From: Methylosinus sporium
Lineage (GTDB): Bacteria > Pseudomonadota > Alphaproteobacteria > Rhizobiales > Beijerinckiaceae
Assembly: GCF_003113265.1 (NCBI RefSeq)
Contig: NZ_PUIV01000024.1
Span: 1-56,654 of the forward strand
Direction of reading: 5' to 3'
DNA length: 56,654 nt
The notes below the pieces were generated by a model. That model saw only the letters and a program-made list of their open reading frames with translations. It made no database searches and was not told the origin of the DNA. Made by a program: the position numbers and the translations under genes. Shown in pieces: positions 14,463-30,031 of the stretch (its first letter is position 1; each line of letters starts with the position of its first letter).

Positions 14463-15734
14463 ATGGCGCTCGCCATTCGATCGCGCCTCTCGATAGTGTC
14501 GCGCGCCTTTTTCTTTCTGCTCGCCGCGGCCGCGCCGGCGGCGAGCTTCGAATCGACGACGAGCGACGCGCGGGCGGCCGATGAAGCCGGCCTCACGCCG
14601 CGCGAGCTGCTGGGCAAGCGGATTTTCGAGGACAAGAGCCTGTCCGAGCCCGCCGGCCTCTCCTGCGCCTCCTGCCACGATCCCGCCAAGGCGTTTCAAG
14701 GCAATAACGGCTCGCCCGTCGCGGCGCTGGCGCGCGGCAGCCGGCCGGATGCGCTCGGAACGCGCAAGACGCCTTCGCTCGCTTACGTCTCCTTCAGCCC
14801 GCGCTTTCATTTCATGAAGAAGGAGGACGAGGAGACCGGCGCGACCGAGCTCGTTCCCGCCGGCGGCCAATTCTGGGACGGACGCGCGGATGATCTGGCT
14901 GCGCAAGTGGAAGGGCCGCTGCTCAATCCGCGCGAGATGAACAATCCGTCGAGAGCCGCCGTCGTCGAGAAGATCAAATCCGGCGCCTATGCCGATCTCG
15001 CGCGGCGCGTCTATGGCGCGAAGATTTTCGACAGCGACGCCGCTTTCGACAAATTGGCGCGCGCCGTCGCCGCCTATGAGAGCAGCGCGCGCTTTCATCC
15101 CTTCTCGTCCAAATTCGACGATGTTCTGCGCGGCCGCGAGAAATTGACCGCTGAAGAAGCAAAGGGCTTCGCTCTGTTCAAGGACAAGAACAAGGGCAAT
15201 TGCCTCGCCTGCCATGTCGGCGAGGAGAAATCGCGCCGGCCGCAAGACTGGCTGTTCACCGATTTCAGCTATGACGCGCTGGGCGCGCCGCGCAACGCCG
15301 CCATTCCCGACAACAAAGACCCGGCCTTTGTCGATCTCGGCCTCTGCAAACGCGAGGGCCTCGCGAAGATCGCGCCGAAAGGCTTCGACATCGACAGTCT
15401 CTGCGGCCAGTTCAAGGCGCCGAGCTTGCGCAATGTCGCCGTGACCGGGCCCTATCTGCACAATGGCGTTTTCGCCAGCCTGCGCGATGTCGTCGCCTAT
15501 TATGCGACGCGCGACACCGACCCTGCGCGCTGGTATCCGAAAAAGGACGGCGCGACCGCGAAATACGACGATCTGCCGGAGAAGTTCCACGACAATGTGA
15601 ACGTCAAGGAAGTTCCCTATGATCGCAAGCCGGGCGAGACGCCGCGGCTCGACGAGGGCGAAATCGACGCCATCGTCGCCTTTCTGCGCACGCTGACCGA
15701 TCGGCCCGCGCCGGTCGCCAGAGCCGAGAAATAA
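14463..15734 (+). CDS. Di-haem cytochrome c peroxidase / MauG family protein
   Basis: This is a 423-residue periplasmic protein with a signal peptide (to about residue 28) and two haem sites, CASCH at 68-72 and CLACH at 247-251. The segment GGQFWDGRADDLAAQ and the C-terminal TGPYLHNGVFASLRDVVAYY are typical of the bacterial di-haem peroxidase/MauG superfamily. It may reduce H2O2 or, as MauG does, oxidise a protein partner. No mau gene lies nearby, so the peroxidase role is the simpler reading. A short hairpin (14431-14446) lies before the start. Confidence 0.88.
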   Translation: MALAIRSRLSIVSRAFFFLLAAAAPAASFESTTSDARAADEAGLTPRELLGKRIFEDKSLSEPAGLSCASCHDPAKAFQGNNGSPVAALARGSRPDALGTRKTPSLAYVSFSPRFHFMKKEDEETGATELVPAGGQFWDGRADDLAAQVEGPLLNPREMNNPSRAAVVEKIKSGAYADLARRVYGAKIFDSDAAFDKLARAVAAYESSARFHPFSSKFDDVLRGREKLTAEEAKGFALFKDKNKGNCLACHVGEEKSRRPQDWLFTDFSYDALGAPRNAAIPDNKDPAFVDLGLCKREGLAKIAPKGFDIDSLCGQFKAPSLRNVAVTGPYLHNGVFASLRDVVAYYATRDTDPARWYPKKDGATAKYDDLPEKFHDNVNVKEVPYDRKPGETPRLDEGEIDAIVAFLRTLTDRPAPVARAEK

Positions 15735-15836
15735 AGCCGAGAAACAGAACGTCTCCGGCCGAAGCGCCGGCTCCGCCGCGAAAAGGACATAAGCATCGGG
15801 CCGGATGGCTCCGTCTTTCCTCGAGGAGGCGGCCCC

Positions 15837-17507
15837 ATGCGGCTTCGTGTTTCCGCTCTCGTTTGCGTATCATCGATCGCGCTGTCCTCCGCATGGGCGA
15901 AGGAGACGATCGTCGAGGCGGCCTCGGCGGTCGAAGGCGTCGTCGTTCATCCCGACGCCGCGACGGTGACGCGCAGAGCGACGATCGATCTTCCCGCGGG
16001 GGCTTCGACCATCGTGCTCGCGAACCTGCCCGCCGGGCTCGACGCCGATTCGCTGCGCGTCTTTGGCGAAGCCGATGGCCGCGTGACGATCGGCGCCGTC
16101 GAGACGCGATTCGCTCCGGCGGATGCGCGCGCGCCGGATACGGCGATCGAGATCAAGCTGAAGCAATTGCGCCGGGCGCGCGAGAGCCTGCAGGCGACGC
16201 TGGATGCGCTCGCCGGCAAGCAGGCGATGATCGTGCGCTATTCGCAGGCCGGGCCGGAGAAGCTCGGGCCCGAGGCGCGCCCTCTCGCGATCGGCGAATG
16301 GAACGCCGCTTTCGAGACGATCGGCGCCGCGCTGGCCAAGACCGGCGAAGAATTACGCACGGCGCGCGCCAGGGCCAAGGATCTCGACGATGAGATTCAT
16401 GCGCTCGAAGCGGGAGGCGGCGAACGCAAAATGCAGCGCCCGGCGCGCGAGGTCGCGATCGCCGTGGAATCGGCGAGCGGCGGAAAGCTGCGATTGACGC
16501 TCACCTATCTCGTCGCCGGCGCCTCTTGGCGGCCCGCCTATGACGCGCGGCTCGACACCGGCGGCAAGGACGGCAAGCCGCAGATCGAGCTCACCCGTCG
16601 CGCCGCGGTGACGCAGAACACGGGCGAGGACTGGAGCGACGTCGCGCTCTCCGTCTCGACGACGCGCGCGCATCGCGGCGCATCGGCGCCGGATGTGCAG
16701 CCGCAGCGCGTCGGCTTCTACGAGCCGCCCGTTCTCTATGCGGAAAAGCTCGCCGCTCCGGTCGCCGCAGCGCCCGAGCGCCAATTGCGCAGAGCCGACG
16801 CCAGGGCTTCGGCGCCCGCGCCCGTCCCCTTGGAACAGCAGACGGCAACGCTCGAATCCAACGCCTATCAGGCCAGCTTCAACATCGCGGGCCGCGTCGG
16901 CGTCCCCGGCGACGGAAGCTCGAAGAGTTTCATTCTCTCGTCGCGCCGCATCGAGCCGACGCTCGCCGCGCATATCGCGCCGGCGCAAGATCCGACCGCC
17001 TTTCTCGAGGCGCGCATCGTCAATGACGAGGACGCGCCGCTGCTGCCCGGCCCCGTCGCCGTGCAGCGCGACGGCGTTCATGTCGGGCAGAGCCGCATCG
17101 CTTTCGTCGCGCCCGGCGAGGCGGTCGAGCTCGGCTTCGGCGCCGACGACAAGATCAAGGTGACGCGCGCGCCGGTCAAGCGCGTCGAAAACGAGCCGAG
17201 CTGGTTCGGCCAGACCAAATATGAGACGCGCGACTTCAAGACGACGATTCGCAATCTGCATGATTTCGTCGTCCCGGTGACGGTGGTCGATCGAACGCCT
17301 TTTTCCGAAAACACGGCCATTACGGTGGAGACGCTGCCACAGACCACTGCGCCCACGACGAAGCAGGTGGCGGACAAGCGCGGCGTGATGGCCTGGAGCT
17401 TCGACGCCAAGCCCGGCGAGACGAAAGAGCTGCGCCTCGCCTATCGGGTCAAATGGCCGGCGGAGCGCGACATTGTGACACAGCCGGCGCCGATCGCGCA
17501 GAGATGA
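15837..17507 (+). CDS. DUF4139 (mucoidy inhibitor A-like) exported protein
   Basis: This is a 556-residue protein with a signal peptide (LVCVSSIALSSAWA). An N-terminal DUF4140 domain begins VEGVVVHPDAATVTRRATID, a coiled-coil region lies near residues 100-190, and the DUF4139 domain begins LTLTYLVAGASWRPAYDARL and runs to the C-terminal RLAYRVKWPAERD. This is the full architecture of the DUF4140/DUF4139 family, which is found in bacteria and fungi with unknown biochemical role. Length is normal. Confidence 0.85.
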   Translation: MRLRVSALVCVSSIALSSAWAKETIVEAASAVEGVVVHPDAATVTRRATIDLPAGASTIVLANLPAGLDADSLRVFGEADGRVTIGAVETRFAPADARAPDTAIEIKLKQLRRARESLQATLDALAGKQAMIVRYSQAGPEKLGPEARPLAIGEWNAAFETIGAALAKTGEELRTARARAKDLDDEIHALEAGGGERKMQRPAREVAIAVESASGGKLRLTLTYLVAGASWRPAYDARLDTGGKDGKPQIELTRRAAVTQNTGEDWSDVALSVSTTRAHRGASAPDVQPQRVGFYEPPVLYAEKLAAPVAAAPERQLRRADARASAPAPVPLEQQTATLESNAYQASFNIAGRVGVPGDGSSKSFILSSRRIEPTLAAHIAPAQDPTAFLEARIVNDEDAPLLPGPVAVQRDGVHVGQSRIAFVAPGEAVELGFGADDKIKVTRAPVKRVENEPSWFGQTKYETRDFKTTIRNLHDFVVPVTVVDRTPFSENTAITVETLPQTTAPTTKQVADKRGVMAWSFDAKPGETKELRLAYRVKWPAERDIVTQPAPIAQR

Positions 17508-17578
17508 CGGACTTGAAAGGGACTTCGGCGTAGCCATTTGTGTGGTGTCGCGGCGCTCGCGCGACGAGGAGAGTCCCC

Positions 17579-18013
17579 ATGCATGTCAATATCGCCGCGG
17601 CGGAGGCCGCCATCACCGCCGCGCGCAAGCGCGCCGCCGAGCTCGGCACGAAAATGTGCATCGCCGTCGTTGATTCCGGCGCCGATCTGAAAGCCTTCTA
17701 TCGCATGGACGACGCCTGGGTCGGCAGTATCGACATTGCGATCAAGAAGGCGAAGACGGCAGTCTTCTTCGGAATGCCGACCGGCGAGATCGGCAAGCTG
17801 TCGCAGCCGGGCGGCCCGCTCTTCGGCATAGAGCATTCCAATGACGGGCTCATCACCTTTCCCGGCGGCCTGCCCATCGTCGACGAGGATGGCGTGCTGG
17901 TCGGCGCGATCGGCGTGAGCGGCAGCTCGGTGGAGAACGACCACGCCGTCGCGCAGGCCGGCGTCGCCGTCGTCGGCGTCAGCGATCTGCCGGCGCATCC
18001 TTGGCGGACGTGA
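17579..18013 (+). CDS. GlcG/HbpS-family haem-binding-like protein
   Basis: This is a 144-residue protein. The ATG at 17579 has GAGGAGAG upstream, and the family N-terminus [20 protein letters not shown] starts there. Conserved parts include [26 protein letters not shown] and [20 protein letters not shown]. The family includes HbpS (haem sensing) and GlcG of glycolate loci; small-molecule binding is likely but the ligand is unknown here. Its 3' end overlaps the convergent SGNH gene by 35 bases. Confidence 0.85.
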
Positions 18014-18605
18014 GCGCGCCGTCGAGCCATGCGCGCCATTGCGGCGCCGCGCCGATGAAATCGGCCAGCGCCGCATAGCCGCCGCTATTGGGGTGGGCGC
18101 CGTCGCCGGCGGCCGCCTCGCTCAAAAGCACGCCGCAATGCGCGGCGAAGCCGTGCGTCTCGATATAGGGAATGCGCTGCTCGGCGCAGAGCCGCTGCAA
18201 TTGCGGACACAGGCGATCGATGCGCGCCACGTCCGGCAGAAACGGGCCGACCATCAAAACGGGCGCGAGCGTCGCCGCCTCGCGCAATATTTCCTGCGCA
18301 TGAGCGAGCGTCTCCTCGAGCGGAACGCGCGCACAGCCCGCTTCCTCTATGCAATCATTGGCGCCGAAGGAAAACAGCAGACGCGCGTCGCAGTCTCGCG
18401 GCAGACGGCGCCGCGCCTCCTCGCGCCAACGCGCCGCGATGTCGGCGCTGGTGTCGCGGCGGACGCCGAGATTATAGGCGGTGACGTCCCGCCCGCCCCG
18501 GCGCTCCCGCGAGACGAGCCGACCCACCCAGCCGAGACCATCGTCGTCGCCGGTTCCATTGACGAGGCTGTCGCCGAAGAAGCAGATGCGAACCGGCGTG
18601 GTCAT
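17979..18605 (-). CDS. SGNH/GDSL-family lipase/esterase
   Basis: This is a 208-residue cytoplasmic protein. The start ATG at 18605 overlaps the stop of the pseudouridine synthase gene as ATGA, which argues for translational coupling and against the longer MARGDG start. Block I is [20 protein letters not shown], block [15 protein letters not shown] and block [12 protein letters not shown], so Ser, Gly, Asn and His of SGNH are all present. It is related to TesA-type acyl hydrolases. It overlaps the convergent GlcG-like gene at the 3' ends. Confidence 0.85.
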
Positions 18606-19315
18606 TCCGTCTCCGCGCGCCATCCGCAGAGCGCCAGCGCCTCACGCATATGCGCGGGCGCCGGGGCGCGCACGACGATGCGCTCCTTGTTCTCGCGCAT
18701 CGGAATGTCGATCTCGCGCGCATGAAGATGCAGCGGCGGCGCGCCTTCGCGCTTGCCATGGCCGTAGACGGGATCGCCGAGCATGGGCCAGCCCATCGCC
18801 TGGCAATGCACGCGTAGTTGATGCGTGCGGCCGGTCTGCGGCTTCAGCTCGAGGAAGGCGAGGTCATTGCCCTGCGCGTCGCGGGCGCGGCCGAGCACGC
18901 GCCAATCCGTCTGCGCCGGCAGGCCCAGCGGATCGGGCCGCATCCACCAGCCGCGCGTCGAATCGAGCCGGCCGAGCGCCATGTCGATATGGCCCTCCTC
19001 CTCCGAAGGCGCGCCTTCGACGATCGCCCAATAGGTCTTCTCGATGCGCCCATCGTGGAACAGTCTGCCGAGCCGCTCCAGCGCCTTGCGGTGGCGGCCG
19101 AGCACGAGGCAGCCGGAAGTGTCGCGATCGAGCCGATGCGCGAGCGCCGGCGCGCGCGGCAGGCCGAAGCGCAGAGCGTCGAAATGATCCTCGAGATTTT
19201 CGCCGCCCTTGGGGCCGCGATGCACGGGCAGGCCGGCGGGCTTGTCGACGACGAGCATCAGCCCGTCCCGATAGAGGAGGCGCGAGACGAGATCATCCGG
19301 TGTCATAGGCCTCAT
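18602..19315 (-). CDS. RluA-family pseudouridine synthase
   Basis: This is a 237-residue RNA-modifying enzyme. The catalytic Asp is in HRLDRDTSGCLVLGR, with the family-typical segments VVDKPAGLPVHRG upstream and LKPQTGRTHQLRVH downstream. There is no S4 domain, so it resembles the RluA/TruC-type short members; the target uridine cannot be named from sequence. It is cotranscribed with the SGNH hydrolase (4-base overlap). Confidence 0.92.
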   Translation of the reverse strand: MRPMTPDDLVSRLLYRDGLMLVVDKPAGLPVHRGPKGGENLEDHFDALRFGLPRAPALAHRLDRDTSGCLVLGRHRKALERLGRLFHDGRIEKTYWAIVEGAPSEEEGHIDMALGRLDSTRGWWMRPDPLGLPAQTDWRVLGRARDAQGNDLAFLELKPQTGRTHQLRVHCQAMGWPMLGDPVYGHGKREGAPPLHLHAREIDIPMRENKERIVVRAPAPAHMREALALCGWRAETE

Positions 19316-19406
19316 CCTAATCGAAACATGCGGCGATTTCGCGGGGCGTCACGCGGCCCGCCCTTGCCGCCGCGCGGCGCGCGCTAGCTAGAGACATGCG
19401 GAGCCA

Positions 19407-19423
19407 GCCCTTGGTCCAAGGGC
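19407..19423. repeat. 17-bp perfect palindrome
   Basis: GCCCTTGG-T-CCAAGGGC occurs 28 bases before the start of the small glycine-zipper gene. It could be an operator or a small hairpin in the leader. No regulator is implied. Confidence 0.4.
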
Positions 19424-19450
19424 CAGCGATAGAGAACAACGGAGAGTACC

Positions 19451-19633
19451 ATGGCCGAAGAAGATCAAGTCGACCGCCTGATGTCGCGGAACGCCTATAT
19501 TTTCGGAGGAGTCGGGGCCGTGCTCGGCGGCATAATGGGCGCCGGCGTCGTCGGTTTCCCCGCCGCGATCGGGACAGTGATCATCGGCGCGCTGCTCGGC
19601 GGCATTCTCGGGTCCTTCATCGTCACCAAATGA
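19451..19633 (+). CDS. Small glycine-zipper membrane protein
   Basis: This is a 60-residue protein with a charged start (AEEDQVDRLMSRN) and two hydrophobic Gly-rich helices with GxxxG spacing (GGVGAVLGGIMGAGVVGF, GALLGGILGSFIV). The ribosome-binding site GGAGAG lies upstream. It is of the same design as the 64-residue protein at 48281-48475, though sequence identity looks low. It probably sits in a membrane; the function is unknown. Confidence 0.65.
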   Translation: MAEEDQVDRLMSRNAYIFGGVGAVLGGIMGAGVVGFPAAIGTVIIGALLGGILGSFIVTK

Positions 19634-19697
19634 CCCGGGCGAGCGACGCCCATTCGACGGAGCGCGGCCGCACGAAGCCGCCGCGCTCCCGCAGCGC

Positions 19698-20816
19698 TCA
19701 GGCCGAATGGCCGAGATGCGCGAGCACGAAGTCGAGCGCGCCGACGCGCTCCAGCAGCCAATAGGCGCCGAGCAGCGCGATTGCCGCCGACAGCGCATAG
19801 ACGAGCCGCGGGCTGCGCTTGCCGCCGGTCTGCTTGTCGATGAAGAGCAGCGCCGGCACGAAGACCAGCACGATCGCCACTTGTCCGAGCTCCACGCCGA
19901 TGTTGAAGGAGGCGAGCGCCGGCAGCACGGCGTTCGCCGGCACGCCGAGCTCCTTCAAGCTGCTGGCGAAGCCGAAGCCATGGATGAAGCCGAAGAGAAA
20001 TGTGTCGCGCCAGCGCCCGTCGACGCGGCGTGAGAAAAAGTTCTCGACTGCGACATAGATGATCGAGGCGGCGATCGCCGCCTCCACCCATTGCGAGGGC
20101 AGCGTCACAATGTCGAGCGCCGCCAGCGACAGCGTGATCGAATGGGAAACGGTGAAGGCGGTGACGATCTTCACCACCGGCCAGACGCGCGTCGCCCATA
20201 GAAGAATGGCGATCAGAAAGCAGACATGATCGTAGCCGGTCAGAATATGTTCGACGCCGGCCTGCACGAATTTCCACATCAGCTGCCAGACCGTCTCCAA
20301 CGGCTTCGACAGATCGAGCGGCGGATCGGCGGGATAGAGCATGGTCTCGCCGGCGTTTTCGCCGGTCAGCGTCACGAGATGCTTGGCCTTGGAGCCGGCG
20401 ACGGCCAGCAGCTCCTTTGCGTCGTAGAAAATCTGGCCGGCGACGCCGGAGCAGTCGAATTTCAGCTTCACCAATGCGCTGTCTGCATTGGCGGGGTCCT
20501 CTCCGGCGTAATCGACGCGGCCGGCGCAGGCGTGTCCCTCGGCGTCATGCATGGAGACGCGGCGCTGAACGAGCTTGCCGATCTGCGTCTCCAGCACGCC
20601 CGGCTGCGACAGCTCGACGCCGGCGCGCTCCGCCATGGTCTGCGAGAAGATGCGCTCGAGATCGGTCGCCAGAAAGCCGACATCGATCTGATAGGAACGA
20701 TCTTTCTCGGGCGTGATCTTGGCGGTGGAAATATCCGCCGTATGGGCGAAGGCCGGCGCGAGCGATGCGAGCAATGCGGCGACGACGAGCGGCAAGCATT
20801 TCGACGACCAGCTCAT
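19698..20816 (-). CDS. HupE/UreJ-family nickel permease with periplasmic domain
   Basis: This is a 372-residue inner-membrane protein. I chose the ATG at 20816 because the signal peptide MSWSSKCLPLVVAALLASLA begins there and cleavage would leave His as the first mature residue (AFA-HTADIST). Residues 30-175 form a soluble periplasmic domain with two Cys. The rest carries about six helices with the HupE/UreJ motifs EHILTGYDHVCFLIA, FTVSHSITLSLA and FGFIHGFGFASSLKELG. HupE/UreJ proteins are thought to move Ni2+ into the cytoplasm for hydrogenase or urease. Divergent nikR and the NikR-controlled receptor support a nickel role. Confidence 0.85.
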   Translation of the reverse strand: MSWSSKCLPLVVAALLASLAPAFAHTADISTAKITPEKDRSYQIDVGFLATDLERIFSQTMAERAGVELSQPGVLETQIGKLVQRRVSMHDAEGHACAGRVDYAGEDPANADSALVKLKFDCSGVAGQIFYDAKELLAVAGSKAKHLVTLTGENAGETMLYPADPPLDLSKPLETVWQLMWKFVQAGVEHILTGYDHVCFLIAILLWATRVWPVVKIVTAFTVSHSITLSLAALDIVTLPSQWVEAAIAASIIYVAVENFFSRRVDGRWRDTFLFGFIHGFGFASSLKELGVPANAVLPALASFNIGVELGQVAIVLVFVPALLFIDKQTGGKRSPRLVYALSAAIALLGAYWLLERVGALDFVLAHLGHSA

Positions 20817-21006
20817 TTTCGAAAGACTCCGGGACAAGCCTGAATGGCGGGGCCGCGACAATGCCCGACGCCGCGAAAATGGACAAGACCGCGCGCCGCT
20901 CGGCCCGCGCGCGATTGCGGGGCCGCTCCCGAACGGGTAAAATCAACGACATGCGGCCGAAGCTTTTCATTGGAATGCAGGGCCGCCGCGCGGGGGAGCG
21001 TCCGAT

Positions 21007-21465
21007 ATGCAGCGTGTCACCATGACCATAGACGACGATCTCATGGCCGCTCTCGACAAATATATGGAAGCCGGCGGGCATCAGAATCGATCGGAGGCGG
21101 TGCGCGATCTCGTGCGCGCCGGCCTCATGAAGCAGCCGAAGCTCGACGACAGCGATCGCCCCTGCATCGGCGCGCTCGTCTATCTCTACGACCATGAGAC
21201 GCGGCAATTGTCGAAGCGGCTGATGCACGACCATCACAGCCACGCCGATCTCTCCATCGCCGCCCTGCATGTGCATGTCGACGCCGAGACCTGCCTCGAG
21301 GTCTCGCTGCTGCGCGGCGCAAAGTCGGAGGTCGAGCATTTCGCCCAGCATGTGATCGGCGAGCGCGGCGTGCGCTACGGCCAGCTCGTCGTCGCGCCGG
21401 CGGAGGCGCATTCGCCCGAGAGCGCCTCGGCGCCGAAACCGCACCACGGCCATAGCCACGCCTGA
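21007..21465 (+). CDS. nikR: Nickel-responsive regulator NikR
   Basis: This is a 152-residue ribbon-helix-helix repressor. The N-terminus MQRVTMTIDDDLMAALDKYM closely matches E. coli NikR, which fixes the start, and GGGGGAG lies upstream. The ACT-like metal domain has SIAALHVHVDAETCLEV. The high-affinity site residues correspond to His77, His88, His90 and Cys96 here (E. coli His76, 87, 89 and Cys95). A His-rich tail (HHGHSHA) may bind extra nickel. It probably represses the adjacent receptor gene, which has a perfect NikR box. Confidence 0.96.
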   Translation: MQRVTMTIDDDLMAALDKYMEAGGHQNRSEAVRDLVRAGLMKQPKLDDSDRPCIGALVYLYDHETRQLSKRLMHDHHSHADLSIAALHVHVDAETCLEVSLLRGAKSEVEHFAQHVIGERGVRYGQLVVAPAEAHSPESASAPKPHHGHSHA

Positions 21466-21530
21466 GGCCTGTGACACAAATGCAACGCTTCGGGCAAATC
21501 CGTAGGTGGGTCGTTGCCACAGCTACGTTC

Positions 21531-21558
21531 GTATGATCTGATAATAAAAAAATCATAC
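21531..21558 (+). promoter_or_regulatory. NikR operator (GTATGA-N16-TCATAC)
   Basis: GTATGA at 21531-21536 and TCATAC at 21553-21558 are separated by exactly 16 bases, an exact match to the operator of the E. coli nik operon. It ends 12 bases before the receptor start and abuts the GGGGGAG ribosome-binding site, so NikR-Ni binding there would block expression of the receptor. The spacer is A/T-rich. Confidence 0.92.
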
Positions 21559-21570
21559 GGGGGAGCTGCG

Positions 21571-23841
21571 ATGACCGGCTGGCGAGTTGGCGAAATTTCC
21601 GCATTGGCCCTGGCGGTCGCGCTTTTCGGCGCGGACGCCGTCGCGCAGGAGAGCTTGCCGGACATAGACATCGGCGCGCCGATCGCGGCCGCGACTCCGG
21701 CGGCCGCCGCGCGCGCGGAAGACGCGCAAAAGGCGAAGGTGAGAGTCGAGGCGGCCAGCGAGACCGTCTTCAGCGGCCAGCAGGTCAACGCCGTTCCCTT
21801 CGCGCGTCCGGGCGAGGCGCTCGAGATCGTGCCCGGCCTCTCGGTCACGCAGCACAGCGGCGAGGGCAAGGCGAACCAGTATTTTCTGCGCGGCTTCCAG
21901 CTCGACCACGGCACTGATTTCTCGCTGACGCTGGACGGAATGCCGATCAATATGCGCACCCACGGCCATGGCCAGGGCTATGCGGACGCCAATTTCCTGA
22001 TCCCGGAGCTGCTCTCCTCCGTCGTCGGCCGCAAGGGCCCTTATTACGCCGACAAGGGCGACTTCTCCTCGGCCGGCGCGGTCGATATGCAATATATCGA
22101 CAAGCTCGATCACGGCTTCTTCCGTGCGACGGGCGGCAGCTTCGCCTATGGCCGCCTGCTCGGCGCCAAGAGCTTCGAGGTGAATGGCGGCAATCTGCTC
22201 ACCGCCATCGAATCCAGCATATACAACGGCCCGTGGACGCGGCCCGACGAGATGCGCAAGATCAATTCGGTGCTGCGCTGGTCGCGCGGGACGCAGGAGG
22301 ACGGCGTCTCCATCACCGCTATGGCCTACGCCAACCGCTGGTTCTCCACCGACCAGATCCCCTCGCGCGCCGTCTATGGCGGCGTCCTTCCGCTCTGGGG
22401 CAATGTCGACAGCACGGACGGCGGCGACGCCTCGCGCTTCAGCCTCTCGGCGCGCTGGAGCCAGACGGAAGGCGCGCATTCCTCGCGCGTGGAAGCCTAC
22501 GCCATCCGCTCGACGCTCGATCTCTACAACAACTTCACCTATTTCCTCTCGCATCCCGACCTCGGCGACCAGTTCCGCCAATTCGACCGGCGCACCGTGC
22601 TCGGCGTCAACGCGCAGCACGCCTATAAATACGAGCTCGCCGGCCTGCCGATCGAATCGCGCATCGGCCTCGAGAGCCGCTACGACAATATTCGTCTCGG
22701 CCTCCAGGACAGCTGGCGGCGCCAGCCCTATGACACGATCACCAACAGCCATGTGGCGGAAGGCAGCGTCGGCCTTTGGACCGACACCACTGTTCGCTTC
22801 ACGCCCTGGCTGCGCGCCACCGGCGGCGTGCGCTTCGATTATTTCGCCGCCAGCGTCGGCAGCCTCCAAGACCCACTCTCCGCGCCCAAGGACGAGAATG
22901 GCGCTCCGATCTGGACCGGCCCCTGGAACAGCGGCTCCAAATCGGCGACGATGGGGAGCCCGAAGGTCGGCGTCGTTATCGGCCCCTTCGAGCAGACGGA
23001 GCTCTTCCTCAATTTCGGCGAGGGACTGCATTCGACCGACGTGCGCGGAACCGTGACCCGGCTGAGCCCGGCCGACGGCTCGTCGGTGGCGACCATCCCG
23101 CTGCTGGTGAAGCAGCGCGGCGCCGAGATCGGCGTGCGGACCACGCGCCTGCTGGAAGGGCTCGAATCCTCGGTCGCCCTCTGGTGGCTGAACAATGATT
23201 CGGAAAATCAGTTCGAGGGCGATTCCGGCAGCACCTCCTTCGGCCGGCCGAGCCGGCGCTACGGCATAGAGATCATCAACCACTACACGCCCGCCTCCTG
23301 GCTGCGGATGGAGGGCAGCGTGTCGCTGTCTCATGCGCGCTTCCGCGGCGTCGATCAGCAGCAGGCGCTCGCCTGGATCGATCTTCTCTCGCCCGACGCG
23401 ATCGGCTACGGAACCTATGTCGGCAACGCCCCCGGCAATTACATTCCCGATTCGCCCAACATCGTCGCCATGGGCCAGATCGAGGTGGGCGAGGCGACCG
23501 GCCCCTTCGCGGCGCTGCGCTATCGCTATCTCGGCGAGCGCCCGCTGACCGAGGACGGCTCCTTCAAATCGCCGGCGACCGGCACGCTCAATCTGCGCGC
23601 GGGCTATCGCTTCGACAATGGCTGGAGCATTCAGGCCGACGCTTTCAACGTCACCAATTCGCGCTCCGACATGATCACCTATGGCTATGGTTCGCTGATC
23701 CCCTCCGATCCGCTCTATGGCCTGTGCAAGGCGGGCGTCGCGCCGAGCAATGTCTGCTCGGTCGGCGTGATGGGCCGTCATTTCAAGCCGATGGAGCCGC
23801 CGGCCGTGCGCGTGTCGATCACCGGCCCGCTGCCCTTCTGA
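21571..23841 (+). CDS. TonB-dependent outer-membrane receptor, probably for nickel
   Basis: This is a 756-residue outer-membrane barrel. The start is the ATG at 21571 after GGGGGAGCTGCG; the longer frame would run into the NikR box. It has a signal peptide (to about AVAQ), then a plug with PFARPGEALEIVPGLSVTQH, NQYFLRGFQLDHG and a His-rich loop THGHGQGYADANF, then a 22-strand-type barrel ending in Phe (VSITGPLPF). The substrate is inferred to be nickel or a nickel chelate from the NikR operator and the adjacent nikR and HupE genes. Energy would come from TonB-ExbBD encoded elsewhere. Confidence 0.9.
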   Translation: MTGWRVGEISALALAVALFGADAVAQESLPDIDIGAPIAAATPAAAARAEDAQKAKVRVEAASETVFSGQQVNAVPFARPGEALEIVPGLSVTQHSGEGKANQYFLRGFQLDHGTDFSLTLDGMPINMRTHGHGQGYADANFLIPELLSSVVGRKGPYYADKGDFSSAGAVDMQYIDKLDHGFFRATGGSFAYGRLLGAKSFEVNGGNLLTAIESSIYNGPWTRPDEMRKINSVLRWSRGTQEDGVSITAMAYANRWFSTDQIPSRAVYGGVLPLWGNVDSTDGGDASRFSLSARWSQTEGAHSSRVEAYAIRSTLDLYNNFTYFLSHPDLGDQFRQFDRRTVLGVNAQHAYKYELAGLPIESRIGLESRYDNIRLGLQDSWRRQPYDTITNSHVAEGSVGLWTDTTVRFTPWLRATGGVRFDYFAASVGSLQDPLSAPKDENGAPIWTGPWNSGSKSATMGSPKVGVVIGPFEQTELFLNFGEGLHSTDVRGTVTRLSPADGSSVATIPLLVKQRGAEIGVRTTRLLEGLESSVALWWLNNDSENQFEGDSGSTSFGRPSRRYGIEIINHYTPASWLRMEGSVSLSHARFRGVDQQQALAWIDLLSPDAIGYGTYVGNAPGNYIPDSPNIVAMGQIEVGEATGPFAALRYRYLGERPLTEDGSFKSPATGTLNLRAGYRFDNGWSIQADAFNVTNSRSDMITYGYGSLIPSDPLYGLCKAGVAPSNVCSVGVMGRHFKPMEPPAVRVSITGPLPF

Positions 23842-23945
23842 GCTGCGGTCGCATCAGTTTCTCGCACTGATCTGGCGCCCCGCGGAAAGCTCGGCTAGGC
23901 TGAGCGTTTCGCTGGGCGGCTTTTTGCGCGCCGCAGCGATCCGCT

Positions 23946-24042
23946 AGAGTGATTCCGGTTCGGATCGAACCGGAATCACTCTCCTTGTTCTGCCGTGTTT
24001 TCTTCCCGCGAACCGGTTCCCACTTCGCTCGAAAACACTCTA
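23946..24042. repeat. Intergenic palindromic repeat element
   Basis: A perfect inverted repeat has 17-base arms (23946-23962 and 23966-23982; arm AGAGTGATTCCGGTTCG) with a 3-base loop. It is followed at 24009-24042 by a stretch beginning GAACCGGTTCCCACTTCGC and ending AAAACACTCTA. Elements of this kind are scattered in intergenic regions of Hyphomicrobiales. A diverged reverse copy of the second part lies at 9424-9450. The palindrome could also end transcription of the receptor gene, though no T-run follows. Confidence 0.65.
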
Positions 24043-24092
24043 TTGCGGCGCGCGATTTTTTCGACGCTCCGGTTTTTGCGAAAGAGACGTTT

Positions 24093-25298
24093 ATGACCGC
24101 GACCAAGCCCAAGAAGAAGCTCGTGATCTTTTGCGACGGCACGTGGAACGAGCCGACCGAGCGCGGCACCAATGTCGTGCGAATGCTGCAGGCCACCGAT
24201 TTTCTCGACGCCGACGGCAATCCGCAGCTCACCCATTACATCGCCGGCGTCGGCACTCGCAAAGACGAGAAGGTCATCGGCGGCGCATTCGGCTTCGGCA
24301 TCTCCGACAATATAAAGGACGCCTACGCCTTCATCGTCAGCAATTACGAGCCGGGCGACGACATCTATCTCTTCGGCTTCAGCCGCGGCGCCTATACGGC
24401 GCGCAGCATCGCCGGGCTCATTCACAATCTCGGCGTGCTGAAGCGCTGGAATCTGCCGCTCGTCTCCATCGCCTATGACCATTACAAGGACAGGGCCGCG
24501 GAATGGCGCCCGGGCGGCGCCTCCGCGCAGACATTCCGCGACGAGAATTGCCACCCCTATCCGACCAAGATCAAATTCCTCGGCGTGTGGGACACGGTGG
24601 GCGCGCTCGGCGCACCCTATGGCGAAATTCTCGGCCGGCTGTTCGACAAGCTCTTCAAGACGAGCTTCCACGATGTGACTCTGAGCGCGAGCGTCGATTC
24701 CGCCTATCACGCGCTGGCGGCGGACGAGCGTCGCTGGCCGTTCCGGCCGACGCCGATCGCGCTCACCGATTATCATCTGGAGCGCGATGCGAAGAACATC
24801 GCCGAGAAAGGCTTTCCGCTCTACAAGCAGCGCTGGTTCCCCGGCGTCCACTCCAATGTCGGCGGCGGCTATCAGGAGCACGGCCTCTCCGACTATGCGC
24901 TGGTGTGGATGGCCGAACGCGCCGCGGAGAATGGCCTGAAGCTGTTGAAATTCGCCGATGTCAAATTCTCCGTCGACCGGCCCTTTTCACCCGATCCGAC
25001 CGAGAAAATTCAAAACAGCCAGACGCTGGGCTACAAGCTCGCCACGACGCTGCTCGTCAAGCTGCCGGCGGCTTTCGGCCTGCCCTCCGTCTATCCGAAA
25101 GCGGATCAAGGGCTCGCGAAGCACGCCAGCTGGGGCGGGGATTACATCCGGCCGATCGCCCCCGACGAGGATTTCGCGCCGGTTCGCGAGAAGGCCGAGA
25201 TCGACCCCTCCTATCGCCCGAAGCAGCTGACGACGATCGGCGTTCCCGTCGCGCAGGAGCAGGAAAAGGCGAAGGAGAAAGAGCGCGAGCCTGCGTGA
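24093..25298 (+). CDS. DUF2235 alpha/beta-hydrolase (Tle1-like phospholipase family)
   Basis: This is a 401-residue cytosolic protein. The start at 24093 gives MTATKPKKKLVIFCDGTWNE, the usual DUF2235 N-terminus; the longer frame runs through the intergenic repeat. The nucleophile motif GFSRGAYTAR (GxSxG) is present, with FLGVWDTVGALG, Asp-rich segments and a His in FPGVHSNVGGGY, consistent with a Ser-Asp-His triad. The family includes T6SS phospholipase effectors (Tle1), but no T6SS gene or immunity gene is nearby, so a housekeeping lipase role is as likely. It ends in a Lys/Glu-rich tail. Confidence 0.87.
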   Translation: MTATKPKKKLVIFCDGTWNEPTERGTNVVRMLQATDFLDADGNPQLTHYIAGVGTRKDEKVIGGAFGFGISDNIKDAYAFIVSNYEPGDDIYLFGFSRGAYTARSIAGLIHNLGVLKRWNLPLVSIAYDHYKDRAAEWRPGGASAQTFRDENCHPYPTKIKFLGVWDTVGALGAPYGEILGRLFDKLFKTSFHDVTLSASVDSAYHALAADERRWPFRPTPIALTDYHLERDAKNIAEKGFPLYKQRWFPGVHSNVGGGYQEHGLSDYALVWMAERAAENGLKLLKFADVKFSVDRPFSPDPTEKIQNSQTLGYKLATTLLVKLPAAFGLPSVYPKADQGLAKHASWGGDYIRPIAPDEDFAPVREKAEIDPSYRPKQLTTIGVPVAQEQEKAKEKEREPA

Positions 25299-25311
25299 GA
25301 AGCGCCCGGGC

Positions 25312-25578
25312 TCAGCGCAGGCGCTCTCTCATATAGCCGCGCAGGACGGCGTTGATGCGCCGCTGATAGCCGGGACCTTCCTTCTTGAAGAAGTCGATGA
25401 GGTCCTGGTCCAGGCGGATGGAGATCGCCTGCTTCTTGGGCGGAATGACGACCTCGGCCTTGCTCCAGTCGATCGGCTCGAATTCCGCCCAATCGGGATC
25501 GCTCGCGATCGCCGCGTCGATTTCAGCGTCCTCTCGATCGCCCGTGCGCTGCGCGGTCCCGCTCGATCTGTCCTTCAT
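25312..25578 (-). CDS. BrnA-family antitoxin-like protein (no BrnT seen)
   Basis: This is an 88-residue protein starting MKDRSSGTAQRTGDREDAEI. The middle reads DWAEFEPIDWSKAEVV, and the C-terminus is a ribbon-helix-helix: KQAISIRLDQDLIDFFKKEG then YQRRINAVLRGYMRERL, which is typical of BrnA. BrnA normally neutralises the RNase BrnT encoded just upstream, but the 178 bases upstream encode nothing BrnT-like. It may be an orphan regulator or an antidote left after toxin loss. It is divergent from dnaG. Confidence 0.8.
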   Translation of the reverse strand: MKDRSSGTAQRTGDREDAEIDAAIASDPDWAEFEPIDWSKAEVVIPPKKQAISIRLDQDLIDFFKKEGPGYQRRINAVLRGYMRERLR

Positions 25579-25637
25579 TCCGCTTCGCCCCGCATTCCGG
25601 TTCGCCCCGCGGCTCGAGCCTAGCGCTCGACGAAGGG

Positions 25638-25657
25638 ATGCGTATATACAACCGCAT
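25638..25657. promoter_or_regulatory. Possible operator of the BrnA-like gene
   Basis: A short inverted repeat ATGCG (25638-25642)/CGCAT (25653-25657) encloses TATATAC in the divergent promoter region of the BrnA-like gene and dnaG. BrnA-type antitoxins repress their own promoters. This is suggestive only. Confidence 0.3.
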
Positions 25658-25756
25658 TGCATGTCGAGTGGGCTGCCGACCGACCGTGTTGTGGGTAGCG
25701 GGCACAAAGCCGACGCCGCGCGCGCCGAATGCGTCGACAATGCTACTAGGGACACG

Positions 25757-27673
25757 ATGCGATACCCTCCCTCCTTCCTCGATGAAATTCGCGCCCGCGT
25801 GCCGGTCTCGGCCGTGGTGTCGAAGAAGGTCAAGCTCAAGAAGGATCGGCGCGAATGGCGCGGGCTTTCTCCCTTTCAGGCGGAGAAGACGCCCTCCTTC
25901 TATGTCAACGACCAGAAGGGCTTCTTTCATGACTTCTCCTCCGGCAAGCATGGCGACGGCTTCACCTTTCTGATGGAGACGGAAGGCCTCACCTTCCCCG
26001 AGGCGGTCGAGCGGCTCGCCGGCATGGCCGGCCTGCCCATGCCGGTGGAGACGAAAGAGGCGCAGGAGGCGGAGCAGCGCCGCGGCTCTCTGACCGAAGT
26101 GCTGGAATGGGCGGCGCAATTCTTCGAGAAACAGCTGCGCGGGCCCGCCGGCGCCGAGGCGCGCGCCTATCTCGCCCGCCGCGAGCTCGGCGAAAAGGAG
26201 CAGACGCAGTTTCGTCTGGGCTTCGGGCCGAGTGAGCGCTATGCGCTGCGCGACCATCTCGCCGCCAAGGGCGCCAGTGTCGAGACGATGATCGAGGCTG
26301 GACTGCTCGTCCATGGCGAGGACATCGCCGTCCCCTATGACCGTTTCCGCAATCGGATCATCTTTCCGATCTCAGACCGCTCCGGCCGCGTCATCGCCTT
26401 CGGCGGGCGAGCGATGGAGAAGGACGCCAAGGCCAAATATCTCAACTCGCCGGAGACGCCGCTCTTCCACAAGGGCGCCAATCTCTACAATCTGCACAAC
26501 GCCCGCAAAGCCGCCCATTCAGCGGGAAACATCATCGCCGTCGAGGGCTATGTCGACGTCATCGCCATGACGGCGGCCGGCTTTCCGCAGACGGTGGCGC
26601 CGCTCGGCACGGCGCTGACGGCGGACCAATGCGCTCTGCTCTGGAATCACGCCGAGGAGCCCATTCTCTGCTTCGACGGCGACAAGGCCGGCCGCGCCGC
26701 CGCCTTTCGGGCGATCGACACGGCCCTGCCGCTGATCGGCCCCGGCCGCAGCCTGCGCTTCGTGCTGCTGCCGGACGGCCAGGACCCGGACGAGCTCTTG
26801 CGCTCCGCCGGCCCTTCCGCCTTGGCCGCGGCGGTGGCGGCGGCGCGCCCTCTGGTCGATCTGATATGGGCGCGGGAGACGGAAGGCGCGCTGCTCGACA
26901 CGCCCGAGCGCCGCGCCGGGCTCGAGCGTCGCCTCGCCGAACTCGCCCGCGCCATCGCCGACGAGAGTTTGCGCCGGCACTATCAAAAAGAATTCTCCGA
27001 CCGCTGCGATTCGCTGTTCGGCCGCACGCGCGGCCAATTTCAGCGTCGGCCCGAGGGGCGTCGCCCCGGCGGACAGCAGCAGCGCTTCCGCCGCGATGCG
27101 GAGCCCATGCGCGGCCCGCTGACCATCGGCGCGGCGCTCGCCAATTCCCCGCTCTATCGCGGCACGACGCCCGCCATCGCCCCGCGCGAGGCGCTCATTT
27201 TGTTGATTCTCTTGAATCACCCGGAGCTGCTCGCGGCCAATCTCGAGGCGGTTGCGGCGCTGGACTTCGCCTCCGCCGAAGGCGAGCGGCTGCGCGCCGT
27301 GCTGGTGCGCAGCCTCGCCGACGGAAGCGGCGCGCGCGAAGAATTCGCTCGCGCCGCTTCCGAAGCCGGGCTACAAGCATTTTGCGAGAAATTGGCCGGC
27401 ATGGGAGCCCATGCGACGCTGTGGAGCGTGCGCGCAGAGGCGGCTCCGGCGGACGCCGGCGAGAGCTTGCGTCAAGCTCTCGTCTTGCAACATCGCGTGC
27501 GCGCATTAGATAAAGAACTTCGGAAAATCGAGGCGAGGTTGGCGATTGCCCCCAACGACCACGATTCCGCGCGTTTAAGCGATATTCAGGCGCAATTGAA
27601 CGCGCTCGATGGAACCGAAGCCGCTCTCGACGGGTTCGGTTCCCAATCGGGCCGTTCGCTGAGAAGCCTTTGA
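25757..27673 (+). CDS. dnaG: DNA primase DnaG, zinc ligands absent
   Basis: This is a 638-residue primase that makes RNA primers at the replication fork. The start MRYPPSFLDEIRARVP matches alphaproteobacterial DnaG. In the N-terminal CHC2 domain the expected Cys-x2-His and Cys-x2-Cys ligands are replaced: GLSPFQAEKTPSFYV (Ser38, Gln41) and FFHDFSSGKHGD (Asp59, Ser62), so it should not bind zinc. The Toprim core is intact (IIAVEGYVDVIAM, CFDGDKAGRAAAF), and the C-terminal helicase-binding domain is present. It is followed by rpoD, the classic dnaG-rpoD arrangement. Confidence 0.96.
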   Translation: MRYPPSFLDEIRARVPVSAVVSKKVKLKKDRREWRGLSPFQAEKTPSFYVNDQKGFFHDFSSGKHGDGFTFLMETEGLTFPEAVERLAGMAGLPMPVETKEAQEAEQRRGSLTEVLEWAAQFFEKQLRGPAGAEARAYLARRELGEKEQTQFRLGFGPSERYALRDHLAAKGASVETMIEAGLLVHGEDIAVPYDRFRNRIIFPISDRSGRVIAFGGRAMEKDAKAKYLNSPETPLFHKGANLYNLHNARKAAHSAGNIIAVEGYVDVIAMTAAGFPQTVAPLGTALTADQCALLWNHAEEPILCFDGDKAGRAAAFRAIDTALPLIGPGRSLRFVLLPDGQDPDELLRSAGPSALAAAVAAARPLVDLIWARETEGALLDTPERRAGLERRLAELARAIADESLRRHYQKEFSDRCDSLFGRTRGQFQRRPEGRRPGGQQQRFRRDAEPMRGPLTIGAALANSPLYRGTTPAIAPREALILLILLNHPELLAANLEAVAALDFASAEGERLRAVLVRSLADGSGAREEFARAASEAGLQAFCEKLAGMGAHATLWSVRAEAAPADAGESLRQALVLQHRVRALDKELRKIEARLAIAPNDHDSARLSDIQAQLNALDGTEAALDGFGSQSGRSLRSL

Positions 27674-27912
27674 CCGGCAAGCCGAACGGCCGACGAGCCA
27701 AAGCTCTACGGATTTGGTTAGGCGGACGTTAAGCCCTGGCCGCGACTGTGGGCTGGAGCGAATCGGTCGGGTCCGTTGCGGGGTCCGCCGGCTTGTCATG
27801 CGGTCGGCGCTGTGGTTTTCGTTAAAATGCGGCGAGCGAGAAAGTAAACGATCCCGGCATGGCGCAGCCTTCGGCTCGGGAAGGCGGCGTGGGGTGGGGC
27901 TTGGAGCGAAGA

Positions 27913-29922
27913 ATGGCGAAAAAAGACGACGAGAAGGTCGAAAACGAGGGCGCAGTGGCAGTGGAGACCGCCGACGGTCCGCTGCTCGACCTCAACGACG
28001 CCGCCGTCAAGCGGATGATCAAGCTCGCCAAGAAGCGCGGCTTCGTCACTTATACCGAGCTCAACGCCGTTCTGCCCTCCGAGGAAGTCTCCTCGGACCA
28101 GATCGAGGACGTCTATGCGATGCTCCAGGAGATGGGCATCACCGTCTCCGAGGGCGACGATCCGGACGACGCCGAGGGCGAGGAGCAGCAGGAGGAGGAG
28201 GAGGCCGAAGGCGGCGAGCTCGTCGAGTCGCCCCGCGCCACAGCCGTCGCCACGCGCAGCTCGGAGCCCGCCGACCGCACCGACGATCCCGTCCGCATGT
28301 ATCTGCGCGAAATGGGTTCGGTCGAGCTTTTGTCGCGCGAGGGCGAGATCGCCATCGCCAAGCGCATCGAGGCCGGCCGCGAGGCGATGATCGCCGGTCT
28401 CTGCGAGAGCCCGCTGACCTTCCAGGCCATCATCATCTGGCGCGAGGAGCTCGAGGCCGGCAAGGTCCTGCTGCGCGACATCATCGACCTCGAGGCCACC
28501 TACGCCGGCCCCGAGGGCAAGAACGCCGGCAAGCCGCCGGTCACGCCGTCCGATCTCGCGCCGGCCACCGCGCCGCGCTCGCCGCCGGCCGCGCTGGGCG
28601 ACGCCGGCGCGCCGCCGGAGGAGGCTTTCGAGGAGGAGGACGACCTCGAGAATTCCGTCTCGCTCTCCGCCATGGAGACCGAGCTGAAGCCCAAAGTGCT
28701 GGAGACCTTCGCCCGCGTCGCCGACGCCTATAAGAAGCTGCGCCGGCTGCAGGATCAGAATGTCGAGAACAAGCTCAAGAACGAGACGCTGACTCCGGCG
28801 CAGGACCGCAAATACAAGCAGCTCAAGAAAGAGATCGTCACCGACGTCAAATCTCTCTCCTTGAACCAGAACCGTATCGAGGCGCTGGTCGAGCAGCTCT
28901 ACGACATCAACAAGCGCCTCATCGGCTATGAGACCAAGCTGCTGCGCCTCGCCGATGCGCAGGGCGTGCAGCGCGAGGACTTCATCGACAAGTTCCAGGG
29001 CTCGGAGCTCGATCCGAAATGGATCATGCGCGTCTCCAAGCTCGGCTCGCGCGGCTGGAAGGAATTCGTCGCCAACGAGAAAGACCGGATCAAGGAGCTG
29101 CGCGGCGAGATTCACGCGCTGGCCACCGAGACGGGCCTCGAGATCGCCGAGTTCCGCAAGATCGTCCATATGGTTCAAAAGGGCGAGCGCGAGGCCCGGC
29201 AGGCGAAGAAGGAAATGGTCGAGGCCAATCTGCGCCTCGTGATCTCCATCGCCAAGAAATACACCAATCGCGGCCTGCAGTTCCTGGACCTCATCCAGGA
29301 GGGCAATATCGGCCTGATGAAGGCGGTCGATAAGTTCGAATATCGCCGCGGCTATAAATTCTCGACCTACGCCACCTGGTGGATTCGGCAGGCGATCACG
29401 CGCTCCATCGCGGATCAGGCGCGCACGATCCGCATTCCGGTGCATATGATCGAGACGATCAACAAGATCGTGCGCACCTCGCGCCAGATGCTGCACGAGA
29501 TCGGCCGCGAGCCGACGCCGGAGGAATTGTCCGAAAAGCTCGCCATGCCGCTGGAAAAAGTGCGCAAGGTGCTGAAGATCGCCAAGGAGCCGATCAGCCT
29601 GGAGACGCCGATCGGCGACGAGGAGGATTCGCATCTCGGCGATTTCATCGAGGATAAGAACGCCGTTCTGCCGATCGAGGCGGCGATCCAGTCCAACCTC
29701 CGCGAGACAACGACGCGCGTCCTGGCCTCACTGACGCCGCGTGAGGAGCGCGTGCTGCGTATGCGCTTCGGCATCGGCATGAACACCGACCATACGCTCG
29801 AGGAAGTCGGCCAGCAATTCTCGGTGACCAGAGAGCGCATTCGCCAGATCGAGGCGAAGGCGCTGAGGAAGCTCAAGCACCCGAGCCGAAGCCGGAAGCT
29901 GCGGAGCTTCCTGGACAATTGA
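27913..29922 (+). CDS. rpoD: Primary sigma factor RpoD
   Basis: This is a 669-residue sigma-70. The ATG at 27913 is preceded by GGAGCG, and the product starts [13 protein letters not shown]. Region 1.1 is at about 25-85, region 1.2 at [20 protein letters not shown], a long non-conserved acidic region follows, then region 2 ([37 protein letters not shown]), region 3 and region 4 ([20 protein letters not shown]). It directs transcription of housekeeping genes. The plus-strand frame upstream to 27859 and the minus-strand ORF over it are not genes. Confidence 0.97.
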
Positions 29923-29932
29923 GCTATTGGCG

Positions 29933-30031
29933 ATGCCGACGATCGCTTCGTTCTACGGCATCGCCATTCGGATGTACCTCGAATCAAACTGGCGTCGCCG
30001 CGAGACGTTGGAGCAGATCGATGGGTTCGAT
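29933..30031 (+). pseudogene. DUF4160 gene remnant with internal deletion
   Basis: The frame begins [15 protein letters not shown], the standard DUF4160 N-terminus, then runs directly into [17 protein letters not shown], which resembles the family's C-terminal end (NW-x-x-A-x-x-G-x-x-L-x-x-ID). The middle of roughly 50 residues is missing, and the frame continues without homology to a stop at 30166. It starts 10 bases after rpoD and leads into the DUF2442 gene, its usual partner. Confidence 0.6.

Follow-up and report, generated by a model that had tools for sequence, protein, structure and literature searches.

Organization of the locus

The analysed window is a stretch of 56,654 nucleotides from Methylosinus sporium (contig NZ_PUIV01000024.1 of assembly GCF_003113265.1, positions 1 to 56,654). 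Genes for a HupE/UreJ permease, the regulator NikR and a TonB-dependent receptor are located side by side at positions 19,698 to 23,841. Matches to Pfam families confirmed all three identities, which an earlier note made from the sequence alone had proposed. The receptor gene (21571–23841, forward strand) encodes 756 residues with matches to PF07715 (1.8e-12) and PF00593 (5.3e-17). It is preceded by a perfect NikR operator, GTATGA-N16-TCATAC, at positions 21531–21558, which was delineated by pattern search and comparison of relatives and reads CGTATGAT-N12-ATCATACG in its extended form. The predicted control of the receptor gene by NikR is strongly supported by the conservation and placement of this operator.

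The nikR gene (21007–21465, forward strand) encodes a protein of 152 residues with a His-rich C-terminal tail (PF08753, 1.4e-23; PF01402). The hupE gene (19698–20816, reverse strand) encodes a 372-residue permease of the HupE_UreJ_2 family (PF13795, 3.8e-48; PF04955, 1.7e-07). The divergent intergenic region between hupE and nikR (20817–21006) lacks a NikR-type operator. The start TTG 20861 given by the open-reading-frame tool for hupE was replaced by ATG 20816, which yields, as judged by eye, a signal-peptide-like start in an AFA-H context common to relatives. It is followed by an N-terminal periplasmic domain from His25 and a membrane domain from approximately residue 176.

The ATG at 21571 fits the alignment of relatives best as the start of the receptor and has a Shine-Dalgarno-like stretch, GGGGGAG, on its 5' side. 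The operator ends 12 nucleotides before this ATG, and therefore it sits in the leader or promoter, off the start codon. The perfect operator described in the earlier note was thus recovered, and its supposed overlap with the translation start was not; the sole open reading frame overlapping the operator is a mechanical TTG-start call at 21514. Reading of seven aligned upstream regions by eye identified a −35-like TTGCCA (21514–21519, forward strand), located 11 nucleotides 5' of the operator. A TTGAC-like element is present 11–13 nucleotides upstream of the operator in the seven loci, and reads TTGCC in the window and in one relative (G042). A scan of positions 20700–21700 for consensus sigma-70-type promoters found none, and no Rfam family reached its gathering score within 15000–30000.

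The operator upstream of the receptor gene

The sequence GTATGA-N16-TCATAC occurs once in the window and in none of 100 window shuffles. The copy at the receptor is the only exact one in the 3,785,845-base genome (G000). When two mismatches are allowed, the genome contains 20 other sites, as compared with 12 for the reversed control. Degenerate sites therefore carry little meaning, and the exact site stands out. Four genomes of the genus (G000, G042, G128 and G146) contain one exact operator each, always at the receptor gene, and the operator at the receptor of G105 has one mismatch. The genus genome G078, which has no NikR match, contains no exact site. At the level of one mismatch, two other sites were found in each of G042 and G078, and the reversed control gave 0 or 1 per genome. 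The 16-base spacer of G042 is identical to that of G000; compared with G000, 5 spacer bases are different in G128, 4 in G146 and 3 in G105. The half-sites in G128 and G146 are unchanged despite the spacer differences. In two loci of a sister group (G089 and Methylocystis sp. Sn-Cys, locus L061), the operator has diverged and reads GTAAGA paired with either ACATAC or TCACAC.

Scanning of genome contigs with the receptor alignment provided the best 80 named loci, which include those of Methylocystis, Bradyrhizobium, Rhodopseudomonas, Methylobacterium, Roseomonas-type bacteria and Betaproteobacteria. A width of 1600 bases was selected so that hoxN-receptor pairs would be spanned; 15 of the 80 loci were too short for this width, and 7 were too short for 600 bases. 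Among the 65 loci usable at 1600 bases, an operator with at most one mismatch was present upstream of the receptor in 33 and downstream in none. The corresponding numbers were 26 and 0 for the exact operator, and 37 and 1 when two mismatches were allowed. Within 600 bases, operators with at most one mismatch were located upstream in 22 of 73 loci and downstream in 0 of 73. In Bradyrhizobium, the operator is often positioned 5' of a hoxN-receptor pair. Of the 80 loci, 25 encode NikR, 17 a HoxN-type permease and 10 a HupE relative, where the hoxN and HupE matches take in distant relatives. The gene identities, the operator, its conservation and its exclusivity are supported at the sequence level.

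NikR and its nickel context

The nikR product matches Escherichia coli NikR (1q5v) over its full length (4.7e-34), and its ribbon-helix-helix and NikR_C domains span the whole protein. It passed the NCBIfam NikR models NF002815 and NF003381, narrowly missed TIGR02793 (171.6 bits; cut-off 175.45 bits), and also missed NF001884 and NF002169. The four nickel ligands of E. coli NikR (His76, His87, His89 and Cys95) are matched in the alignment of the nikR product to 1q5v. The operator at 21531–21558 is presumably of the E. coli type.

A survey of 149 family genomes found a receptor match in 19 (one of them a fragment), NikR in 35 and HupE_UreJ_2 over the cut-off in 27. Exclusion of the fragment, which belongs to G078, left 18 genomes with a full-length receptor, of which 16 contain NikR, as compared with 35 of 149 overall (Fisher p 4e-10, not corrected for kinship). 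NikR and the receptor are neighbours in 9 of these 18 genomes. Eleven genomes encode a HupE that shares 65% identity or more with ours, and ten of them contain NikR (Fisher p 2e-6, also not corrected for kinship). The gene for this type of HupE adjoins nikR in 8 of the 11, in two genera (seven divergent, one tandem). The remaining HupE genomes (15 of the 27) contain 16 loci that are at most 45% identical to ours in the membrane part, and four second copies are 54–57% identical; therefore, the count of 11 genomes stands. The three genes occur together in 5 of the 149 family genomes (G000, G042, G146, G105 and G089). Among the best 80 named loci, several of which are cut short, the gene order of the M. 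sporium locus was found only in L061.

Contig C15 of the M. sporium genome contains matches to the NiFe hydrogenase large subunit, a cytochrome b subunit and hypF. The hypF product and the cytochrome b subunit pass their NCBIfam cut-offs, and the large and small hydrogenase subunits stay under theirs. An E-value of 1e-40, which we selected to set aside complex I subunits, defined the NiFe hydrogenase set of the family survey. No match to urease alpha was found in the genome. Relatives of the receptor elsewhere have the following neighbours: nikR and the receptor gene are beside hyp and hox genes on pHCG3, the receptor of pHG1 is near hoxN and a hydrogenase gene, a Bradyrhizobium plasmid carries hoxN, receptor and hydrogenase genes together, and a receptor homologue of Methylomagnum is beside nikR.

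Contig C17 of the same genome encodes two NicO-family proteins. One of them (L154:5937-7855) follows an open reading frame with an AHPHVWV stretch behind a signal-like start. We take this reading frame to be DUF1007-like, and the layout is reminiscent of DUF1007-NicO pairs. The second NicO protein is encoded near a metal P-type ATPase.

The TonB-dependent receptor

The model of the receptor (predicted local distance difference test score, pLDDT, 87.8) contains a barrel and a plug. Residues H95, H113, H131, H133 and D139 of the plug do not vary in two alignments that include our sequence, one of 19 and one of 44 sequences, which suits metal binding, short of proof. Foldseek searches with the model returned general TonB receptors, with PqqU as the best match and the copper receptor OprC lower; no nickel receptor is among the solved matches listed. 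The receptor of pHCG3 is 51% identical to ours, over 91% of the length of the M. sporium receptor.

A receptor of the family in locus L071 (L071:773-4033) is extended at its C-terminus by a segment with a match to a small outer-membrane barrel (PF13505, 1.7e-05, which is under the cut-off), and may be a two-barrel fusion.

The HupE permease

Permeases of the HupE/UreJ-2 group with this architecture were named "anglerase" permeases in a 2025 study, as stated in passages of PMC12537917. The M. sporium HupE shares with the Ang-1 type described there the PF13795 membrane domain, a His that seems to follow the signal peptide at the start of the periplasmic domain, and three helices between strands 2 and 3. 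These helices are present in our structure model (pLDDT 80.8) and, according to the same passages, in the Ang-1 crystal structure. A His in an A-H or S-H context follows the signal-peptide-like start in 23 of the 24 locus-derived HupE sequences, as judged by eye. Residues H25, H190, D196, H197, H225, H279 and E309 are invariant in seven aligned HupE sequences, including ours. The spacing of His190, His197 and His225 equals that of His194, His201 and His229 in MmAng-2a, a related Ang-2 protein covered in PMC12537917.

The first six Foldseek matches of the periplasmic domain were to two zinc proteins, PA4063 and ZrgA; their E-values ranged from 1.3e-3 to 0.02, and none reached 0.001. The Ang-1 structure 9GCE was absent among the 50 matches listed. 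In the PMC12537917 passages, the nearest structural match of the published Ang-1 domain is also a zinc-binding protein, from Vibrio cholerae. A sequence search of the Protein Data Bank found no solved relative of HupE (one chance-level match). No classical HupE (PF04955) is encoded in the M. sporium genome besides the two HupE_UreJ_2 proteins, and the genome contains no match to the nickel-binding partner DUF4198. The second HupE_UreJ_2 protein (L052:5890-7017, contig C36) is 56% identical to the first and is encoded near a PepSY_TM protein.

A NikR-box-like site with one mismatch was found in locus L071 (L071:5289-5316), where it separates a HupE gene from a CopC gene transcribed divergently. 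We keep it only as a lead, because of this position, because the neighbouring −35-like TTGAC faces copC and because no nikR was seen on the 8.5-kilobase contig.

Neighbouring genes

Next to hupE, positions 19451–19633 encode a glycine-rich hydrophobic protein of 61 residues without a Pfam match, which is kept beside hupE in four genus relatives. Directly downstream of the receptor gene, the product of positions 23949–25298 matches the Tle1-like phospholipase catalytic domain (PF09994, 9e-78), and this placement of the gene is kept in three genus relatives. From the sequence, its likely start is the ATG at 24093.

Proposed mechanism and alternative explanations

Based on the identities of the genes, the operator and its conservation, the locus is probably a unit for nickel uptake, of a kind already known (probability about 0.72), in which the receptor is repressed by NikR and HupE acts as a non-NikR inner-membrane partner. 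We infer repression, the substrates of the receptor and of HupE, and the destination of the nickel as follows. When cytoplasmic nickel is sufficient, nickel-loaded NikR would bind to the single operator, located across the likely receptor promoter, and repress transcription. When nickel is short, the receptor would be made and would enable the TonB-powered passage of nickel, probably as a chelate, into the periplasm. The periplasmic domain of HupE, probably beginning with a metal-binding His, would capture the metal and pass it to the membrane domain and on into the cytoplasm. HupE itself would stay outside NikR control. The main nickel user that can be seen would be the NiFe hydrogenase encoded elsewhere in the genome.

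The Ang-1-type HupE might even be a dedicated inner-membrane partner of the NikR-repressed nickel receptor, with control by nickel restricted to the outer membrane, although we offer this extension tentatively. If it is true, a periplasmic domain with a single leading His must select nickel from the copper-rich periplasm of a copper-dependent methanotroph. The locus puts an Ang-1-type permease, the natural metal of which may be nickel or copper, in a nickel context within a copper-dependent methane oxidiser. With a single exact site in each of four genus genomes, it is a clear-cut candidate for a NikR regulon of one target, and nickel control of the receptor is testable outside Helicobacter.

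Several observations weigh against a nickel uptake unit, or restrict it. The earlier note had presented the locus as self-contained and NikR-controlled throughout. Control of the receptor agrees with the operator's conservation in the genus and its placement in the receptor family, but control of hupE or of nikR has to be rejected: positions 20777–21026 contain no site even when 4 of the 12 motif bases may mismatch, and the divergent hupE-nikR intergenic regions of this genome and of seven relatives contain no site within 3 mismatches of a relaxed motif. The named loci free of sites comprise both the nearest (Methylocystis) and the most distant receptors. A search with the relaxed motif within 500 bases of 15 further family receptors found a one-mismatch site in two and a two-mismatch site in three, and by the same search no operator precedes the additional receptor genes that G105 and G146 carry (L016 and L023, both among these 15). 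NikR control therefore fits this receptor gene and many of its relatives, not all of them. The best profile and fold matches of the receptor are YncD/PqqU and there is no close solved relative, so its substrate rests on gene context. A clear NiFe hydrogenase is lacking in 8 of the 18 family genomes with the receptor, the hupE homologue of G128 is 1.1 megabases away from nikR and the receptor gene, and the two NicO-family proteins of the M. sporium genome may also move nickel. The receptor homologue of Methylocystis rosea is beside nikR and resistance-nodulation-division (RND) efflux genes, and that of Methylobacterium extorquens CM4 (pCMU01) is near cobalamin genes. Judging from these neighbours, some receptors of the family may carry cobalt.

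According to the most probable alternative, NikR and the receptor form a nickel unit, and the adjacent HupE transports a different metal, in all likelihood copper or else zinc. The one Ang-1 domain tested favours copper (dissociation constant 74 nM) over nickel (220 nM), as given in passages of PMC12537917. The zinc-protein folds nearest to the periplasmic domain, the lack of a NikR operator at hupE, and the separation of hupE in G128 point in the same direction. Genome G078 has no match to NikR, urease or a clear NiFe hydrogenase and only a fragment of the receptor (L057:6804-7236), yet it has kept HupE; its NikR, hydrogenase and receptor were presumably lost together. In L071, the HupE gene faces a CopC gene, and the M. 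sporium genome encodes a PmoA-type protein. The association of this HupE type with NikR, its neighbour in 8 of 11 genomes and a co-resident in 10 of 11, argues against copper. None of the five locus proteins scanned, to which the scan was confined, matched a copper family. The HupE of Rhizobium leguminosarum is a nickel transporter according to the title of a cited paper (Brito 2010). We regard a non-nickel HupE as somewhat unlikely. Nickel carriage by HupE is plausible, although copper may be its metal instead.

It is improbable that cobalt, free or chelated, is the main cargo of the receptor and that NikR answers to both metals. A published cluster pools nickel with cobalt receptors, as seen in a passage of PMC3400609, and the pCMU01 homologue is close to cobalamin genes. 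However, that homologue is only 45% identical to our receptor and has no nikR within 8 kilobases in an incomplete annotation, whereas closer relatives of the receptor have NikR sites and hoxN and hydrogenase neighbours. That the operator is a chance palindrome is hardly credible: two-mismatch sites are common in the genome, but only about 0.04 exact sites per genome are expected under independent bases, the reversed control gave 0, the position is conserved in four relatives, three of which have changed spacers, and upstream sites in the receptor family (33 of 65) are set against none downstream.

Comparison with known systems

Receptors of the Bll6948 type are reportedly linked to NikR in the original papers. 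The M. sporium receptor has the plug and barrel, homology to a listed member and the upstream NikR operator of this type. A passage of PMC3400609 lists Bll6948, Daro_3944, RPA_4757, pHCG3_081 and Daro_1684 as receptors for nickel/cobalt; Bll6948 and Daro_3944 are predicted nickel receptors in a passage of PMC7142613, which credits Rodionov 2006, and are among those named in a passage of PMC11247825. The receptor matched on pHCG3, the sole match on that plasmid, is probably pHCG3_081; it adjoins nikR and hydrogenase genes, and many Bradyrhizobium relatives share the operator. Bll6948-type receptors have hoxN or no permease as a partner, whereas the receptor studied here is paired with a HupE_UreJ_2 protein.

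The view in the earlier note that such a unit is less described needs to be divided. It does not apply to the receptor family, which is already listed as nickel/cobalt; it does apply to the NikR-HupE-receptor unit in methanotrophs, of which no description was found in the literature searched, mostly by titles. A passage of PMC2667541 mentions that further nickel transporters are predicted to be under NikR, and divides HupE/UreJ into a nickel and a cobalt branch. In the PMC12537917 passages, NikR and TonB receptors are not among the frequent neighbours of Ang-1; they are noted as neighbours of DUF4198 instead. Beyond the known kind of receptor, the interest of the locus lies in the permease, in the metal that it carries and in how it is regulated.

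The NikR of M. sporium resembles E. coli NikR over its full length, and the half-sites and spacing of the operator are those of the E. coli motif. The E. coli regulator targets nikABCDE, whereas the target here is the receptor gene and the regulator carries an added His-rich tail. The Helicobacter receptors FrpB4 and FecA3 are compared with our receptor by description, and the operator here is of the E. coli type. With FrpB4 and FecA3, as described in a passage of PMC11247825, the M. sporium receptor would share its role as a NikR-regulated, TonB-dependent nickel receptor.

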